This document shows positions 6,452-52,863 of a stretch of DNA of 64,000 nt, in pieces. Both the position numbers and the translations under genes were made by a program. The notes under the pieces were generated by a model, which did no database searches, was not told where the DNA came from, and worked only from the letters and a program-made list of their open reading frames with translations. This DNA comes from a virus, in the IMG/VR virus record IMGVR_UViG_3300044638_004964, positions 1 through 64,000 of that record. One strand, given 5' to 3'. The first letter of the stretch is position 1. Every line of letters begins with the position of its first letter.

Positions 6452-6523
6452 GGCCCCATAGTTAAATGGATATAACAACTTTCTTCTAAAAAGTGATTAG
6501 GGGTTCGATTCCTCTTGGGGCTA
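6452..6523 (+). tRNA. tRNA-Arg (UCU)
   Basis: A full cloverleaf folds: acceptor GGCCCCA (6452-6458) with TGGGGCT (6516-6522), discriminator A 6523, D stem GTTA/TAAC, anticodon stem ACTTT/AAAGT with loop CTTCTAA, anticodon TCT at 6485-6487, and T stem AGGGG/CCTCT closing loop TTCGATT. CCA is not encoded. It reads AGA, the favoured Arg codon in most genes here, so it probably supplements the host pool. The next ORF starts 5 bases after it. Confidence 0.93.
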
Positions 6524-7555: not shown

Positions 7556-7897
7556 ATGAGTAAATCAAGTTTAACAACCGTGTTATTACTATCATGTTTA
7601 ATGTTTATGGCAAGTGTTCAAGCAAAAGATAATAGAAAAGTATTAATAGTATTTTCAGCATCTTGGTGCCAATCGTGCCAAATTGCTAAAAATGACATGG
7701 AAGTTGATGAGAATCTTGTAGAAACTTTGAAAAATTATGAGATCATCGAAGCGGATTATGATGTTGACAAAGACCTAGTACAAGGCTATAATATCAAAAC
7801 GATACCAACGTTTGTGGTATATAGCGGTGGAAAAGAAATTAAAAGAAAAGTTGGATATGACGGGAGAGCTAAAGGATTGAATAGCTTTCTCAAATAA
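7556..7897 (+). CDS. exported thioredoxin-like protein
   Basis: A signal peptide (residues 1-23, ending V-Q-A) precedes a thioredoxin fold with W-C-Q-S-C at 37-41 and the cis-proline in T-I-P-T (Pro84). The mature domain, about 90 residues, should act on disulfides in the envelope or periplasm. An AGGAG site precedes the ATG. It is followed within 7 bases by the tmRNA and then by other exported proteins, suggesting a group that modifies the host envelope or assists folding of secreted phage proteins. Phage thioredoxins are usually cytoplasmic, so the leader is unusual. Confidence 0.85.
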   Translation: MSKSSLTTVLLLSCLMFMASVQAKDNRKVLIVFSASWCQSCQIAKNDMEVDENLVETLKNYEIIEADYDVDKDLVQGYNIKTIPTFVVYSGGKEIKRKVGYDGRAKGLNSFLK

Positions 7898-7903
7898 GAA
7901 AGA

Positions 7904-8253
7904 GGGCCAGTAAAGGTATCGACAGGTAAAATAGATATAAACTGCATTAACTGGTTAATCGAATGGCCAGTATAAAAATCGATTAAAACTGTTAATTGGC
8001 GAAGTAACTCTCGCTCTCGCTGCCTAATTAATTAGGTAATGAGTGGGGCGGCATGAGCCTTATTACCAAATCATGCTGACGCAGATAATCTGATATGGTA
8101 GCCTTACCAGACATAAATAGGGATGATGATTGTACTCAATCTGACTCAGATAATTCTGATAGCTTTGTTAATTGTGCGATAACAACTAACTAATAATGTA
8201 GAAGTTTATATTGATGTTTATTCTGGACAGGGGTTCGACTCCCCTCTGGTCCA
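7904..8253 (+). ncRNA. ssrA: tmRNA (transfer-messenger RNA)
   Basis: tmRNA rescues stalled ribosomes by charging with Ala and then encoding a degradation tag. The ends form a tRNA-like domain: GGGCCAG (7904-7910) pairs with CTGGTCC (8246-8252), discriminator A 8253, and T arm AGGGG-TTCGACT-CCCCT at 8229-8245. The 5' side carries TATCGACAGG, matching the conserved tmRNA 5' segment, and ATAAAC (7937-7942) can pair with GTTTAT (8216-8221) as helix 2. The tag frame is at 7998-8027. The 350-base length is typical. CCA is not encoded. No promoter is obvious, so it may be processed from a longer transcript. Confidence 0.93.
7998..8027 (+). other. tmRNA tag reading frame, peptide GEVTLALAA
   Basis: From resume codon GGC (7998-8000) the frame reads G-E-V-T-L-A-L-A-A and stops at TAA (8025-8027). 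The A-L-A-A end is the classic protease-recognition signal. In established tags a Gly-Glu start is known from Bacteroidetes (for example GENNYALAA), and a Gly start also from some others, whereas Ala is commonest. The resume codon is inferred from the tag pattern, not measured. Confidence 0.8.
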
Positions 8254-8258
8254 CTGTT

Positions 8259-8307: not shown

Positions 8308-8523
8308 ATGAAGACTTTTATTACATGTGTTGCTCTTTGTTTTTGTGTCAACGCCGCTAGTGCTGGCGAATGTGTTAATGGTAGCTGTAATCTTCGCAGC
8401 CGTACTGTTACCGTAGCCCGTGAGCTTATTAGTGTTCCTGTTGAGGTAACACGACGCACGGTGGAGGCTACACGAAATGTTGGTCGCCGCACGGTAGCTC
8501 GCGTTCGAAGCGTTGTTCGTTGA
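8308..8523 (+). CDS. small exported Arg/Val-rich protein (71 aa)
   Basis: A signal peptide (about residues 1-19, ending A-A-S-A) follows an AGGAG site. The mature part has C-V-N-G-S-C and then a Thr/Val/Arg-rich tail (V-T-R-R-T-V-E-A-T-R-N-V-G-R-R) with strong positive charge. It uses CGT/CGC Arg codons rather than AGA, suggesting high expression or a different origin. It could bind nucleic acid or anionic envelope polymers; function unknown. Confidence 0.65.
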   Translation: MKTFITCVALCFCVNAASAGECVNGSCNLRSRTVTVARELISVPVEVTRRTVEATRNVGRRTVARVRSVVR

Positions 8524-9212: not shown

Positions 9213-9983
9213 ATGAAAAAGCTAATATTAATACTTTTCTGTCTATTTCTAGAGAATAATTTGATAGCTGGCACAATAGATCAAAACGTGCCAGATTCTA
9301 AATATGTTGAATATGGCGATAAGCATGAGTCAGTAGTAAAGCAAGAAGGAAATCACGACAACAAGGATAATACATATTTTTACGCATCAGCAGTAATTAT
9401 TAAACCTAGATGGTTATTAACCGCCGCCCACGTAATTAAAGGTAGTAAAAATTGTAGAATTGTTGTTGGTAAAAAAACTATACCAATAGACTTCATAAAG
9501 CATCACGCCTCATATGAAGAAAATAAATTTGGAAAATACGATATTGGAATAGGGCATTTAAAAGAAGATGCTGACATATCTTTTTATCCAGAATTATATA
9601 GTAAAAATGACGAAGTTGGTAAGATTTGTAGCATGGCTGGATATGGTATTACTGGAACATTTCAAAGCACAGAAAGAAAAGTAGACGATCTAAAAAGAGC
9701 GGGATCAAATATAATAGAAGCAACCGACAAAGACTTATTGATATGTTCTTTAAAGGATGGCCCAAGAACCAGTTTAGAATTCTTAATATGTCATGGTGAC
9801 AGTGGTGGTGGTTTATTCATAGATAAAAAACTAGCAGGAATAAATTCTTGTATTCTTACGGAAGATAAAAAATTAGATTCAAATATTAATGATTGGTCAG
9901 GACACACCAGAGTTAGTTTATTTATTGATTGGATAAAAGAGGTAATGGATACCATAGAAAAGGCAGAACAAGCCAAACCATGA
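9213..9983 (+). CDS. exported trypsin-like serine protease
   Basis: A signal peptide (residues 1-19) leads to a chymotrypsin-fold domain with the complete triad: His73 in L-T-A-A-H-V, Asp110 in K-Y-D-I-G-I and Ser197 in C-H-G-D-S-G-G-G. At 256 residues it is a single catalytic domain without an obvious PDZ. It would act outside the cytoplasm after export. It has its own promoter and GAAAGGA site. Exported S1-type proteases are rare in phages; roles could include superinfection exclusion, envelope processing or lysis. The G-D-S-G-G core makes the family assignment firm. Confidence 0.88.
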   Translation: MKKLILILFCLFLENNLIAGTIDQNVPDSKYVEYGDKHESVVKQEGNHDNKDNTYFYASAVIIKPRWLLTAAHVIKGSKNCRIVVGKKTIPIDFIKHHASYEENKFGKYDIGIGHLKEDADISFYPELYSKNDEVGKICSMAGYGITGTFQSTERKVDDLKRAGSNIIEATDKDLLICSLKDGPRTSLEFLICHGDSGGGLFIDKKLAGINSCILTEDKKLDSNINDWSGHTRVSLFIDWIKEVMDTIEKAEQAKP

Positions 9984-48068: not shown

Positions 48069-49673
48069 ATGTTGAATTGGTGCCCACTAAGGAATTACAC
48101 TCATTACAGTTTATTGAGGGGTTTTTCAAAGCCAGACGAGTTAGCAGCAAAGTGTAAAGAAGAAGGATATACTGCTTGCGGTATTGCTGATTATAAGACA
48201 ATATCTGGGGTTGTATCTTTTTATCAAGCTTGTCAAAAGAATGGGATAAAACCTATCATTGGTTGCTCATTTGATGACTGCGCTTTGTTTGCTAAGAATA
48301 GTGCCGGTTGGCATGATCTTATTCACCTAGTATCATCTATAGATGATGAAGGTAATATATCTAGCACTATTTGGTCAAACACTCTAAAGAAGGGCAATGT
48401 AATAAAGGTGTCTAATGATGCCTCACTATTTCCCATTAGTTATTATGTTAAAAAAGAAGATGCGACATTGCATCGTATACTATTATGCTCTGAATTAAAA
48501 ACCACACTTCCAAAGATTCAGAAACAAATACGCAATGGTGATCTACCAAAAGATATAGAATATCAATTTACTCACGACGATAAAAACGTTTGGTCAAAGG
48601 AAGAGGCACAAAAAGCAATTAGCTCAACATCATCCAAAAATCTAGATAATATTTCTAGTATTATAAATGAGTGTGAGAGCTATAATATTCTAAGCAAGCC
48701 CAATCTTCCAAAGTTCGCTTGTCCAAATAATCAATCAGAAGAGGATTATTTGAAGGAACTATGTCGCGTTGGCTGGAAAAATATATTAATAGATGGTGAT
48801 AAGGTTTCTAAACCAGAAGATAAAGAAAAGTATCTAGAAAGATTCAAGGAGGAATTTGATGTTATTAAGGGTGCTAATCTATTCGGTTATTTCCTCATTG
48901 TTAGAGACATTATACACTATTGCGAAAGTCAAGGTTGGTTGTGTGGTCCCGGTAGAGGTTCAGCGGCTGGATGCCTAATCTCATATCTTATTGGAATCAC
49001 AAAGATTGATCCAATAGAATTTGACCTACTGTTTGCTAGATTTTATAATGCTGGGCGAAATAGTGAGGACCATATCTCACTTCCAGATATTGATATGGAC
49101 GTTCCCGGCAAGAAGCGTGACGAAGTTATATCTTATCTTAAGAATAAATATGGTCATGATCACGTTAGTCAAATGATTTCGTTTGGTAGGCTACAGGGAA
49201 GAAGTGCTATAAAAGAAGTTTTACGCATAAATGAAGCGTGTTCTTTTGGTGAAATGAACACTATAACAAAGAGTATTCCTAACGAAGCTGAAATTTCTGA
49301 CCAACTTGCCGACATGGATGACGATAATAGATCTATTATACGTTGGGCACTAATTAATAATGCCAATGAATTAAGGGATTTTTGCCACATAAACGAAGAT
49401 GGTAAGCTAGAAGGAAATTATGCTGAGTATTTTGATCAAGCTATAAAGATTGAGGGAACATTTAAAACACAGGGAAAACACGCCGCCGGTGTTGTTATAT
49501 CAGCTAAGAAATTGAATACCGTTTGCCCGATGGTTAAGCAGCGTGATTCATCTGAAAAGATTGCGGGATTAGAAATGGCAGACCTAGAAGCTCTAGGACA
49601 TGTCAAGTTTGACGTTCTAGGAATTAATTTACTAGATAAAATTATGATGATACAAGACTTAACTGGAGTATAA
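48069..49673 (+). CDS. dnaE-N: DNA polymerase III alpha, N-terminal piece
   Basis: The 534-residue protein covers the PHP domain (N-Y-T-H-Y-S-L-L, G-I-K-P-I-I-G) and the C-family palm. G-P-G-R-G-S-A-A-G (293-301) is the conserved nucleotide-binding segment; P-D-I-D-M-D provides catalytic Asp340 and Asp342, and K-F-D-V-L-G the third, Asp515. It stops with D-L-T-G-V at the palm-to-fingers border, where E. coli DnaE continues. The rest is encoded at 51301-52863. No intein motifs are present at the end. The PHP metal residues are partly altered. Confidence 0.92.
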   Translation: MLNWCPLRNYTHYSLLRGFSKPDELAAKCKEEGYTACGIADYKTISGVVSFYQACQKNGIKPIIGCSFDDCALFAKNSAGWHDLIHLVSSIDDEGNISSTIWSNTLKKGNVIKVSNDASLFPISYYVKKEDATLHRILLCSELKTTLPKIQKQIRNGDLPKDIEYQFTHDDKNVWSKEEAQKAISSTSSKNLDNISSIINECESYNILSKPNLPKFACPNNQSEEDYLKELCRVGWKNILIDGDKVSKPEDKEKYLERFKEEFDVIKGANLFGYFLIVRDIIHYCESQGWLCGPGRGSAAGCLISYLIGITKIDPIEFDLLFARFYNAGRNSEDHISLPDIDMDVPGKKRDEVISYLKNKYGHDHVSQMISFGRLQGRSAIKEVLRINEACSFGEMNTITKSIPNEAEISDQLADMDDDNRSIIRWALINNANELRDFCHINEDGKLEGNYAEYFDQAIKIEGTFKTQGKHAAGVVISAKKLNTVCPMVKQRDSSEKIAGLEMADLEALGHVKFDVLGINLLDKIMMIQDLTGV

Positions 49674-49674
49674 A

Positions 49675-50280
49675 ATGGCCACTCAGTGTGGAAAATATAT
49701 TGGTCAAAAATTTGGAATGTTAACTGTTCAAAAAATTACTAGTAAAACCAAAAAATCTCATTATAGGGCCGAATGTTTGTGTGATTGTGGTAATACTGTT
49801 ATACGCCGCATAGATTCTCTAGTACACGATAAATCAAAAAGTTGTGGGTGTTCAGCATTCAAAACAGGGTGCGAACATGCCTTATATAGAGGATACGAAG
49901 GTTTGAGCCTGAGACGCTGGTCTAAAATCAAAACAATGGCAAAAGATCGTGGATATAATGTCAAAATAGATATTAAATATGTCTGGGATTTGTATGAAAA
50001 ACAGGGAAGAAAATGTGCGATAACTGGAGTTCCCATTATCTTCTCTAAACAAAACAAAGACAATGTTGGCACAACAGCATCTTTAGATAGGATAGATAAT
50101 AATAGAGATTATATTGAAGGAAACGTACAGTGGGTGCATAAACGTATAAACATAATGAAAGGTAATATGAATACAAATGAATTTTTAAATATTTGCGAGG
50201 CTGTAGTTGCAAAAAATAAAGAAGAAGATATATTTGAGACACCAGTACACTATACAAGAAAGATGTTTTATGGCAAATAG
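49675..50280 (+). CDS. HNH homing endonuclease inside the split polymerase locus
   Basis: ATG 49675 is two bases after the polymerase stop and uses GGAG from its last codons. The protein has the N-terminal zinc motif (C-L-C-D-C-G-N, C-G-C-S) and a C-terminal core with C-A-I-T-G, T-A-S-L-D-R-I-D-N-N and V-Q-W-V-H-K-R-I-N, the same family as 15946-16479. It probably invaded the polymerase locus by homing. Confidence 0.85.
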   Translation: MATQCGKYIGQKFGMLTVQKITSKTKKSHYRAECLCDCGNTVIRRIDSLVHDKSKSCGCSAFKTGCEHALYRGYEGLSLRRWSKIKTMAKDRGYNVKIDIKYVWDLYEKQGRKCAITGVPIIFSKQNKDNVGTTASLDRIDNNRDYIEGNVQWVHKRINIMKGNMNTNEFLNICEAVVAKNKEEDIFETPVHYTRKMFYGK

Positions 50281-50950
50281 AGATTATATTATATTCGACT
50301 TTGAAACAGGCTCAAGAAATCCTCACAAAACCCAACCAACTCAGATTGCAGCAATAGCTCTAGATGGTAGAAACTTATCAGTTAAGGGACAATTTAATAG
50401 TGAAATCAAGCCCATATTTGACGATGAAGAGGCTATATCTCTTGGGCTAGATCCACTTCAAGATGAAGCTTTAAAGATAACTGGAAAAACTAGAGAGGCT
50501 CTAGCTGAAGCTCCCTCAATTAAATCAGTATGGTCTAAATTTGTAAAGTTTGTTGATCAATATAATTGGAAGGGTGATCCATTTTTTGCTCCAATTCCAG
50601 TTGGATTTAATATCCTTGGTTTCGATATGCACATTGTTAATAGGCTATGTAGAGAATATGGTCCTTGGGATAAAGAGCGAGAACAACAAAAACTATTTAG
50701 TAAAGTCTATAAAGTTGATATCATGGACAATGTTTTCGTATGGACAGAAAGTGATCCATCAGTTAAGTCTATTAGCATGGATTCGCTACGAGAAAGAATG
50801 GGTCTTAGCAAGGAAAATGCTCACGATGCTCTACAGGACGTTAAGGACGAGGCCAATATATTTATCAAGCTCATGAAAACCCATAGATCTGTTTATCAGA
50901 ATATTACTTTTGATAAAGCTTTTGCTAATGGTGGACTGTATGTTAAATAA
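50270..50950 (+). CDS. DnaQ-like 3'-5' exonuclease
   Basis: The start at 50270 overlaps the HNH gene by 11 bases; upstream starts in frame are ignored. The DEDDh motifs are complete: Asp10/Glu12 in F-D-F-E-T-G, Asp119 in N-I-L-G-F-D, and His185/Asp190 in H-D-A-L-Q-D. At 226 residues it is a stand-alone proofreading domain like the E. coli epsilon subunit. Its place between the two polymerase pieces suggests it proofreads for them. Confidence 0.9.
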   Translation: MANRDYIIFDFETGSRNPHKTQPTQIAAIALDGRNLSVKGQFNSEIKPIFDDEEAISLGLDPLQDEALKITGKTREALAEAPSIKSVWSKFVKFVDQYNWKGDPFFAPIPVGFNILGFDMHIVNRLCREYGPWDKEREQQKLFSKVYKVDIMDNVFVWTESDPSVKSISMDSLRERMGLSKENAHDALQDVKDEANIFIKLMKTHRSVYQNITFDKAFANGGLYVK

Positions 50951-51308
50951 AGTTTGCAACAAGTGTAAAAAGGAATTACCAATTGAACATTTTAGCAAAC
51001 ATAGCGGCAGCAATTATTTAAGACCAGAATGTAAATCTTGCAATAATTTGCTAAGTAAAATACGAAGCAGTCTCAGGAAAAAGCATGAAACCCCTCCAGA
51101 AAATTATCAATGTCCAATTTGCAATAGAAGCGAGCATGAGATATCTTCTGGTGGAGGAAATAAAAAAAGCAAGTGGGTGCTAGACCACAATCACCAAAAT
51201 AATAATTTTAGGGGATGGTTATGTCACACATGTAATATGGGTATAGGTTCTTTTTCTGATAATATTGATACATTGTACAAAGCTATAGAGTATTTAAAAA
51301 ATGATTGA
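50940..51308 (+). CDS. endonuclease VII-type HNH nuclease
   Basis: The start at 50940 overlaps the exonuclease stop. The 122-residue protein has an N-terminal zinc site (C-N-K-C, C-K-S-C) and the endonuclease VII core D-H-N-H, then G-W-L-C-H-T-C-N, I-G-S-F-S-D-N. T4 endo VII resolves branched DNA, and this family also includes homing nucleases. Its stop overlaps the second polymerase gene, whose ATG is 51301. Confidence 0.8.
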   Translation: MLNKVCNKCKKELPIEHFSKHSGSNYLRPECKSCNNLLSKIRSSLRKKHETPPENYQCPICNRSEHEISSGGGNKKSKWVLDHNHQNNNFRGWLCHTCNMGIGSFSDNIDTLYKAIEYLKND

Positions 51309-52863
51309 CTACAACGACAAGAAGACTTGGCAATTATTTGCAGAAGGTAAAACTAAGGGTATCTTTCAGTTAGAAAGTAATCTTGGTAAGGCTTGGGCTA
51401 AAAAAGTTGCTCCAACAAATATTGAAGAATTATCTGCTCTTATTGCTATTATTAGACCGGGAACGTTAAAAGCTTTCGTTGATGGAAAGTCTATGACCCA
51501 GCATTACGTTGACAGAAAGCACGGCAGAGAAGAGGTTGTATATTTGCATGAATCTCTGGAAGAAATCTTAAAGCCAACGTATGGGGTTCTAGTTTATCAA
51601 GAGCAGTCCATGCGTATAGCTCAAAAGGTCGCTGGCTTCAATCTACAAGAGGCCGACGTTCTTCGTAAGGCCATTGGAAAGAAAAAGGCTGACCTCATGA
51701 ATGAAGTTAAGAAATCATTTATTGAGGGGTCACAGCGAGTTGGAATGGTAACAAAGGAAGAAGCGGAACAGATTTTCGGATGGATTGAGAAGTCTGCACG
51801 ATATGCTTTCAATAAATCCCACAGTATATCTTATGCCGTATGCTCATATTGGAGTGCCTATTATAAAGCCCACAATACTCCAGAATTCTTTTTATCGTAT
51901 CTGTATTATGCTAATGAAAAGCAAGATCCACACCAAGAAGTTTATGAACTTATTTCTGAAGCAAAGCTATTTGATATACAGGTAAGAACACCTAGTCTTG
52001 CCAATTTCGATACAAAATTTAACTTTAGACATGGGAAGATATACTTTGGGATTAAGGATATCAAATCTCTCACTGGTAAAACTGGCGATAAATTGATAGA
52101 AGCGGTCGAAGAATCAGAAAAGCTTGCTGGTAAAAAAATTACTAAATTCTCATGGTTAGAGTTATTGATATATTTTAGCCCCAATATAAGTTCCACTTCT
52201 TTTAAAGCTTTAGCCTCAATTGGTTTTTATAGAGACTTTGCAGAAAAGATTAGTAGAAATAAAGCGCTGTATGATTATGATATATTTAAGAATTTAACAC
52301 AGGCTGAGAAAACTTGGGTTTTAACTCAATACCCGACTAAAAAGTGGTCAACATTTATGGATTGTTTGAAGGATTTGGCACCAACTAAAAAAGAAGGTGG
52401 TGGAACTAGCAAAGCCGATAGAAGACAATTTATAGAGAATGAACTACAATTATTAATAAATCCACCATACGACTTGGAGGATGAACCAAGCTGGTTAATA
52501 GATCAAGAAATTAAATTCTTAGGCTGTCCAGTTACAATGACTAAAATTGAAACATCCGATACTTCCGCAGCTAATACAACATGTAAAGATGTTGTTAACG
52601 GAAAAAAGGGTAAGGACTTGTGCATAGTTGCCAATGTCCAAAGAGTTTCGGATTATAAAATAACAAAGGGTGAATCAAAAGGCCAAATGATGTCATTTCT
52701 AACAATAGAAGATGATTCATGTATCCTTGATAGCGTTATAGTATTTCCAAAAGTTAGAGATAAGTACAAATATGTGCTTTACGAAGGAAATAATCTAATT
52801 TTCTGTGGGAATGTAGCCGACCACGACTCGTCCTTTATAGTGAACCAAATTCATGAGATTTGA
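51301..52863 (+). CDS. dnaE-C: DNA polymerase III alpha, C-terminal piece
   Basis: The 520-residue protein begins M-I-D-Y-N-D-K-K-T-W, which aligns with the P-L-D-D-K-K segment of E. coli DnaE, directly after the point where the first piece stops. It continues through the fingers domain (I-F-Q-L-E-S, R-P-G-T-L, A-F-N-K-S-H-S at 169-175) to an OB domain (C-I-V-A-N-V, V-I-V-F-P-K). The cyanobacterial split-intein site is at the F-N-K-S-H-S segment, which is intact here. It must assemble with the N-terminal piece to give an active polymerase. Confidence 0.92.
   Translation: MIDYNDKKTWQLFAEGKTKGIFQLESNLGKAWAKKVAPTNIEELSALIAIIRPGTLKAFVDGKSMTQHYVDRKHGREEVVYLHESLEEILKPTYGVLVYQEQSMRIAQKVAGFNLQEADVLRKAIGKKKADLMNEVKKSFIEGSQRVGMVTKEEAEQIFGWIEKSARYAFNKSHSISYAVCSYWSAYYKAHNTPEFFLSYLYYANEKQDPHQEVYELISEAKLFDIQVRTPSLANFDTKFNFRHGKIYFGIKDIKSLTGKTGDKLIEAVEESEKLAGKKITKFSWLELLIYFSPNISSTSFKALASIGFYRDFAEKISRNKALYDYDIFKNLTQAEKTWVLTQYPTKKWSTFMDCLKDLAPTKKEGGGTSKADRRQFIENELQLLINPPYDLEDEPSWLIDQEIKFLGCPVTMTKIETSDTSAANTTCKDVVNGKKGKDLCIVANVQRVSDYKITKGESKGQMMSFLTIEDDSCILDSVIVFPKVRDKYKYVLYEGNNLIFCGNVADHDSSFIVNQIHEI

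Follow-up and report, generated by a model that had tools for sequence, protein, structure and literature searches.

The window analyzed here comprises the first 64 kb of a 105,961-bp IMG/VR virus record, a metagenomic contig from an uncultured, T4-like bacterial virus. Among its genes are rIIA and rIIB as well as those for a class I ribonucleotide reductase, a DnaB-like helicase, a primase and a DNA polymerase III alpha of the bacterial type. No nucleotide relative of the record was found in an annotated phage collection, and the matches of rIIA and NrdA are scattered over phages of many hosts with about 55% identity or less. The DNA polymerase III alpha is split within the window (48069-52863) into a part containing the PHP and NTPase/palm regions (48069-49673) and a finger part (51301-52863), and an exonuclease-like ORF (PF00929) and an EndoVII-type ORF (PF02945, 50910-51308) are located between the two halves. 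The features at the locus under study, a tmRNA gene flanked by two protein-coding genes, are listed in Table 1. The DNA match running from the thioredoxin-like gene into the tmRNA is continuous in four related contigs (L127, L129, L130 and L133; blast alignments), and homologues of the downstream gene stand 3′ of the tmRNA in L124 and L125. Near the tmRNA, at 9213-9983, the window also encodes a trypsin-like protease (PF00089, E 3.5e-17) whose N terminus is signal-like.

Table 1. Genes and RNA elements at the tmRNA locus (window positions).
Feature	Position	Strand	Basis
Thioredoxin-like protein gene, ends 6 nt before the tmRNA	7556..7897	+	Pfam PF00085, E 2.9e-13
One-piece tmRNA gene (ssrA), to discriminator A73	7904..8253	+	RF00023 match; family alignment and covariation
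Acceptor stem 5′ strand GGGCCAG, bearing G3 of G3-U70	7904..7910	+	Pairs with 8246-8252
Pseudoknot PK1 (H3 ACTGG/CCAGT; H4 TTAATCGA/TCGATTAA)	7950..7986	+	Covariation in relatives
Resume codon GGC and tag ORF GEVTLALAA, stop TAA	7998..8027	+	RF00023 resume-codon alignment; in-frame relatives
Helix H5, contains the tag stop codon	8023..8036	+	CCTAATTAATTAGG hairpin, MFE fold; 80% of cells paired in relatives
Probable pseudoknot PK2 (GCATGA/TCATGC; TTACCA/TGGTAG)	8051..8101	+	Pairing in relatives
T-arm AGGGG-TTCGACT-CCCCT, segment swapped among relatives	8229..8245	+	Family comparisons
Acceptor stem 3′ strand CTGGTCC	8246..8252	+	A73 at 8253; HNH gene of relatives enters directly after
Next gene, small protein of 71 aa, signal-like N terminus	8308..8523	+	Sequence

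In a cmscan search with all of Rfam 15, positions 7904-8256 (+) matched the tmRNA model RF00023 over its full length (1-374) with 96.5 bits and an E-value of 2.2e-36, the gathering score being 47 bits, and this match is the sole tmRNA that Rfam detects in the 105,961-bp record. The initial annotation had described a complete phage-encoded tmRNA with the tag GEVTLALAA, possessing acceptor stem, T arm and helix 2, and had named the covariance search as a check; the search was passed, and the description is borne out by the full-length match, the tag ORF, the sequence and the predicted fold. The single strand folds with -99.5 kcal/mol (z -3.67), better than 100 of 100 shuffled sequences, and acceptor stem, H2, H5 and T-arm are all present in the MFE structure. 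The tRNA-like domain contains the T-arm, the discriminator A73 and the alanine identity pair G3-U70, which is invariant in 12 of 12 relatives; CCA is absent from the window's gene, in which CTG follows A73. PK1 is an H-type pseudoknot with a covarying H4 located upstream of the resume codon, and the short tag ORF (GGC GAA GTA ACT CTC GCT CTC GCT GCC TAA), whose frame is kept across the family, ends in a hydrophobic -AA degron. A prophage attachment remnant, i.e., a partial ssrA at a contig end, was rejected since the gene is whole, lies inside the record and is syntenic in relatives. These results confirm the window's gene as a new addition to the phage tmRNAs.

The tmRNA is found throughout a family of related phages. 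A relative of rIIA is present in 11 viral contigs, and in 10 of these a full tmRNA scores above the gathering threshold; in the eleventh, L126, the tmRNA is cut inside by the contig end. The same contig shows a match to the Rfam abiF RNA at 548-584, which with 38.3 bits (E 0.0044) barely exceeds the gathering score of 37. A pattern search using the 5′ part of the RNA yielded a family of 82 viral contigs. This number, together with at least 119 IMG/VR stretches, including some host ssrA at prophage ends, that match one 3′-end pattern, makes it doubtful that phage tmRNAs are uncommon, as the initial annotation had assumed. In an alignment of 12 members (369 columns), RNAalifold identified 30 pairs kept through two-sided changes. 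Across the 12 relatives, 94.4% of the named structure, both pseudoknots included, is paired and 16 pairs are doubly changed, compared to 28-50% paired and 0-3 doubly changed pairs if the structure is slid along the alignment as a control. Two-sided changes occur in the acceptor stem, PK1 H4, PK2 and the T-arm. For H4, they affect five of eight pairs with 100% of cells paired in the 12 relatives, while H3 is invariant; for PK2, 98.6% of cells are paired in the outer and 84.7% in the inner helix; and all five pairs of the T-stem vary on both sides and stay paired in the 12 relatives.

The tags of the family, GEVSTLALAA, GEVTLALAA, GETRFALAA, GEVNLALAA and rarer forms, are all in frame and vary in length in whole codons only, the indels being multiples of three. 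That the indels are codon-sized, although the RNA is otherwise conserved, provides good evidence for translation of the tag. The likeness of the tag start to Bacteroidetes tags had initially been taken as a possible hint to the host or origin. A degenerate scan of GTDB genomes showed that Bacteroidota and Chlorobiota tmRNAs do bear tags of the type GE[TA][NS]F, which resemble the phage tag GETRFALAA, as might be expected if the phage tmRNA had been acquired recently from a host among the Bacteroidota and the tag mirrored that host's ssrA. However, in this one scan the exact phage tag was not found in any bacterial tmRNA, the remaining matches being apparent chance hits. Moreover, in a tree of tmRNA bodies from which acceptor and T-arm had been left out, the 40 sequences of the phage GE family (support 0.856) group with sister phage tmRNAs of IMG/VR that have AE or AD tag starts (ADTSVLALAA, AEPSFAIAA, AEKNFALAA), whereas the Bacteroidota tmRNAs form a separate clade (support 0.915) with which the phage RNAs do not group; the node joining all phage RNAs is supported by only 0.455, leaving the deep branching unsettled. 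The sister tmRNAs are also one-piece and share the PK1 sequence pattern, but differ in an Ala resume codon and in a T-stem that is mostly AGGGG or GCGGG. The change of the resume codon from GCC to GGC requires one base. Furthermore, Shine-Dalgarno-like motifs precede 25 of 48 phage ORFs compared to 9.6% of random places, and Shine-Dalgarno use is unusual in Bacteroidota phages. Judging from the body tree and the Shine-Dalgarno use, the GE start of the tag seems to have arisen within the phage lineage. The Bacteroidetes hint is not supported: a Bacteroidota origin of the tmRNA is rejected on the basis of the body tree, and recent capture from such a host is very improbable.

Complete phage-encoded ssrA genes are known from mycobacteriophages (Bxz1, Wildcat and others) and Bacillus phage G (PMC4131195). 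The gene described here is alike in being a complete tmRNA encoded by a phage, but tag and body differ and the present family is T4-like and uncultured; the alignment to annotated phages is confined to some 32-38 nt at the tmRNA 3′ end. The RNA is most likely a functional trans-translation RNA relying on host SmpB and other host enzymes, and no SmpB gene is detectable in the record, which may be incomplete. The tmRNA would probably be transcribed together with the upstream thioredoxin-like gene, excised by host RNase P and completed with CCA by a host enzyme. Host alanyl-tRNA synthetase might charge it with alanine through G3-U70 and host SmpB might bind it, and trans-translation would then free ribosomes stalled on broken messages, to the benefit of the phage. 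Peptides would receive Ala plus GEVTLALAA, of which -LAA might act as a degron for host ClpXP-type proteases. Possible roles of the phage tmRNA in ribosome rescue and in the choice of the protease are plausible. Alternatively, rather than being an active tagging RNA, it might chiefly act as a decoy, titrating host SmpB or blocking trans-translation by the host. This would fit the record's lack of a detectable SmpB gene, and mycobacteriophage DS6A encodes an ssrA consisting of the TLD only, molecules of that sort inhibiting tmRNA (PMC4131195). However, the mRNA-like part is fully conserved in the present family: PK1 covaries, the tag frame is kept, indels are codon-sized and the ALAA end is retained. 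Since a decoy needs neither PK1 nor the tag frame, their conservation makes this alternative unlikely.

Compared to the conserved body, the T-arm is highly variable. A search pattern leaving the T-arm free revealed at least a dozen T-arms among distinct family members, and in pairwise comparisons 43% of T-stem positions differ versus roughly 1-29% in other regions. In 59 member pairs with a body identity of at least 0.97, a mean of 3.83 of 10 T-stem positions differ with pairing kept, and the differences climb only to about 5 of 10 with body divergence. In the sister family 0.5-1.8 T-stem differences are observed at 85-97% identity; for its 15 pairs at or above 0.97 the mean is 2.1, four pairs differing strongly. 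As an example from the GE family, L201 and L225 have bodies that are 100% identical and yet differ by four compensating T-stem changes (GGCAG/CTGCC vs GCGAG/CTCGC), although the flanks are the same locally, within a 4.7-kb alignment at 96.3%. The recurrence of the same T-arm variants in contigs from many metagenomes makes assembly error less probable. Some relatives have T-loops of eight or six nucleotides, which are of doubtful function. For tmRNAs seemingly lacking a T-arm, an intron was considered and rejected, as these have divergent T-arms. In L268 of the sister family, which has no endonuclease neighbor, the T-loop GGCAGTA lies between GCGAG and CTCGC; this tmRNA is decayed, misassembled or truly odd.

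Directly 3′ of the tmRNA, many relatives encode an HNH-type gene (PHROG 3322/3118 endonuclease matches; no match of this HNH family in Pfam) or a small EndoVII-type gene (PF02945), while the window's own tmRNA is not directly followed by an endonuclease gene. In three comparisons of occupied and empty alleles among the relatives, the occupied allele bears an HNH gene at the 3′ end of the tmRNA, inserted beside an altered T-arm. For L199 vs L252, the right flank picks up again at the tmRNA end with 93.5% over 2.9 kb; for L198 vs L229, the HNH insertion amounts to about 620 bp extra; and for L272 vs L016, the tmRNA body is 100% identical and the next gene homologous, with the HNH gene inserted in L272. 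A T-stem other than AGGGG or GCGGG is present in 11 of 11 distinct tmRNAs with an HNH neighbor versus 18 of 60 without (Fisher p 1.4e-5, ignoring relatedness; HNH and EndoVII labels rest on short sequence motifs). CCA is encoded in 7 of the 11 tmRNAs with an HNH neighbor. T-loops of eight nucleotides, of the form TTTCRAAN, are restricted to tmRNAs with an HNH neighbor, and those of six nucleotides to tmRNAs with an EndoVII-type neighbor. In the same contigs, 76 tRNA loci were scored with the same short motifs, and none is followed 3′ by such an endonuclease gene. Moreover, the HNH leaders contain hairpins over the GGAGG ribosome site, of which three of five are clearly better than shuffled sequences.

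From these data we infer, with less certainty than applies to the tmRNA itself, that free-standing homing endonucleases target the tmRNA 3′ end of the family. Invasion by the endonuclease, or escape from invasion, would replace T-stems while pairing persists. That repeated invasion of an HNH/EndoVII-type homing site and escape from it swap the T-arm in compensating steps, turning an arm that is normally conserved into the fastest-changing part of a working RNA, has in our judgement about an even chance of being correct. T-stem turnover might also result from a host RNA nuclease or from recombination with tRNA genes, the endonuclease genes being bystanders. T-stem changes do occur without an adjacent endonuclease, e.g., GTGAG in L188 and L211, and tRNA T-stems of these phages vary as well (bodies of about 45 nt, i.e., low resolution), suggesting that a wider cause, perhaps not tmRNA-specific, is possible. 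Furthermore, tRNA-cutting defense nucleases exist, such as Septu, which cuts the variable loop of tRNA-Tyr (PMC13096335). However, 3′-end insertion combined with T-arm change is seen in independent lineages, and in the sister family, where AGGGG and GCGGG prevail, the few aberrant members include L272, the sole HNH carrier there. As donors of the tmRNA T-stems, tRNA T-arms were rejected, since a search confined to these loci gave no further exact copy of any tmRNA T-arm. A bystander role of the endonuclease genes is thus possible, albeit somewhat doubtful. As a whole, a functional phage ssrA gene whose 3′ end appears, in the family, to be a target of homing endonucleases is quite probably the best explanation.

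Free-standing homing endonucleases of T4-like phages (SegB, MobE, F-CphI) are encoded beside their presumed target with co-conversion of the flanks (PMC2988022, PMC6083498), T4 homing endonuclease genes have a hairpin over the ribosome site (PMC2988022), and cyanophages are known to have homing endonucleases of the EndoVII fold (PMC6083498). The relatives' genes resemble these systems in the position of the HNH or EndoVII-type gene beside the presumed target in the HNH leader hairpin over the ribosome site and, apparently, in the co-conversion of flanks. They differ in that the target appears to be the 3′ end of a tmRNA and in that the HNH family has endonuclease matches only among PHROGs and none in Pfam. 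SegB has the cleavage motif RAWTSGAAC (PMC13096335), of which the other strand, GTTCSAWTY, would in our own reading correspond to the tRNA T-loop. New at the level of the family is the link between T-arm turnover and endonuclease insertion, for which no earlier report was found in the part of the literature searched.

Uncultured T4-like phages of a widespread group stably carry a tmRNA gene. The T-arm turnover of this tmRNA represents a natural experiment on the T-arm changes that a tmRNA tolerates, and suggests a conflict between selfish endonucleases and an RNA obliged to keep its fold. ARAGORN reports only a tRNA-Arg(TCT) at 6452-6523 in the window and misses the tmRNA at 7904-8256, as it does those of L124, L125, L130, L133, L009, L066, L067 and L084, i.e., 9 of 13 family tmRNAs that are detected by Rfam. 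Phage annotation based on ARAGORN therefore undercounts the tmRNAs of this family, and as the usual annotation program often misses the tmRNA, trans-translation by phages is probably undercounted as well. Permuted tmRNAs were also observed at L135 2973-3208 and L136 1962-2264: the crAss-like phage cr7_1 matches the permuted tmRNA family RF04321, and cyanophage S-SSM7 has a cyanobacterial-type one that is unannotated in its record.
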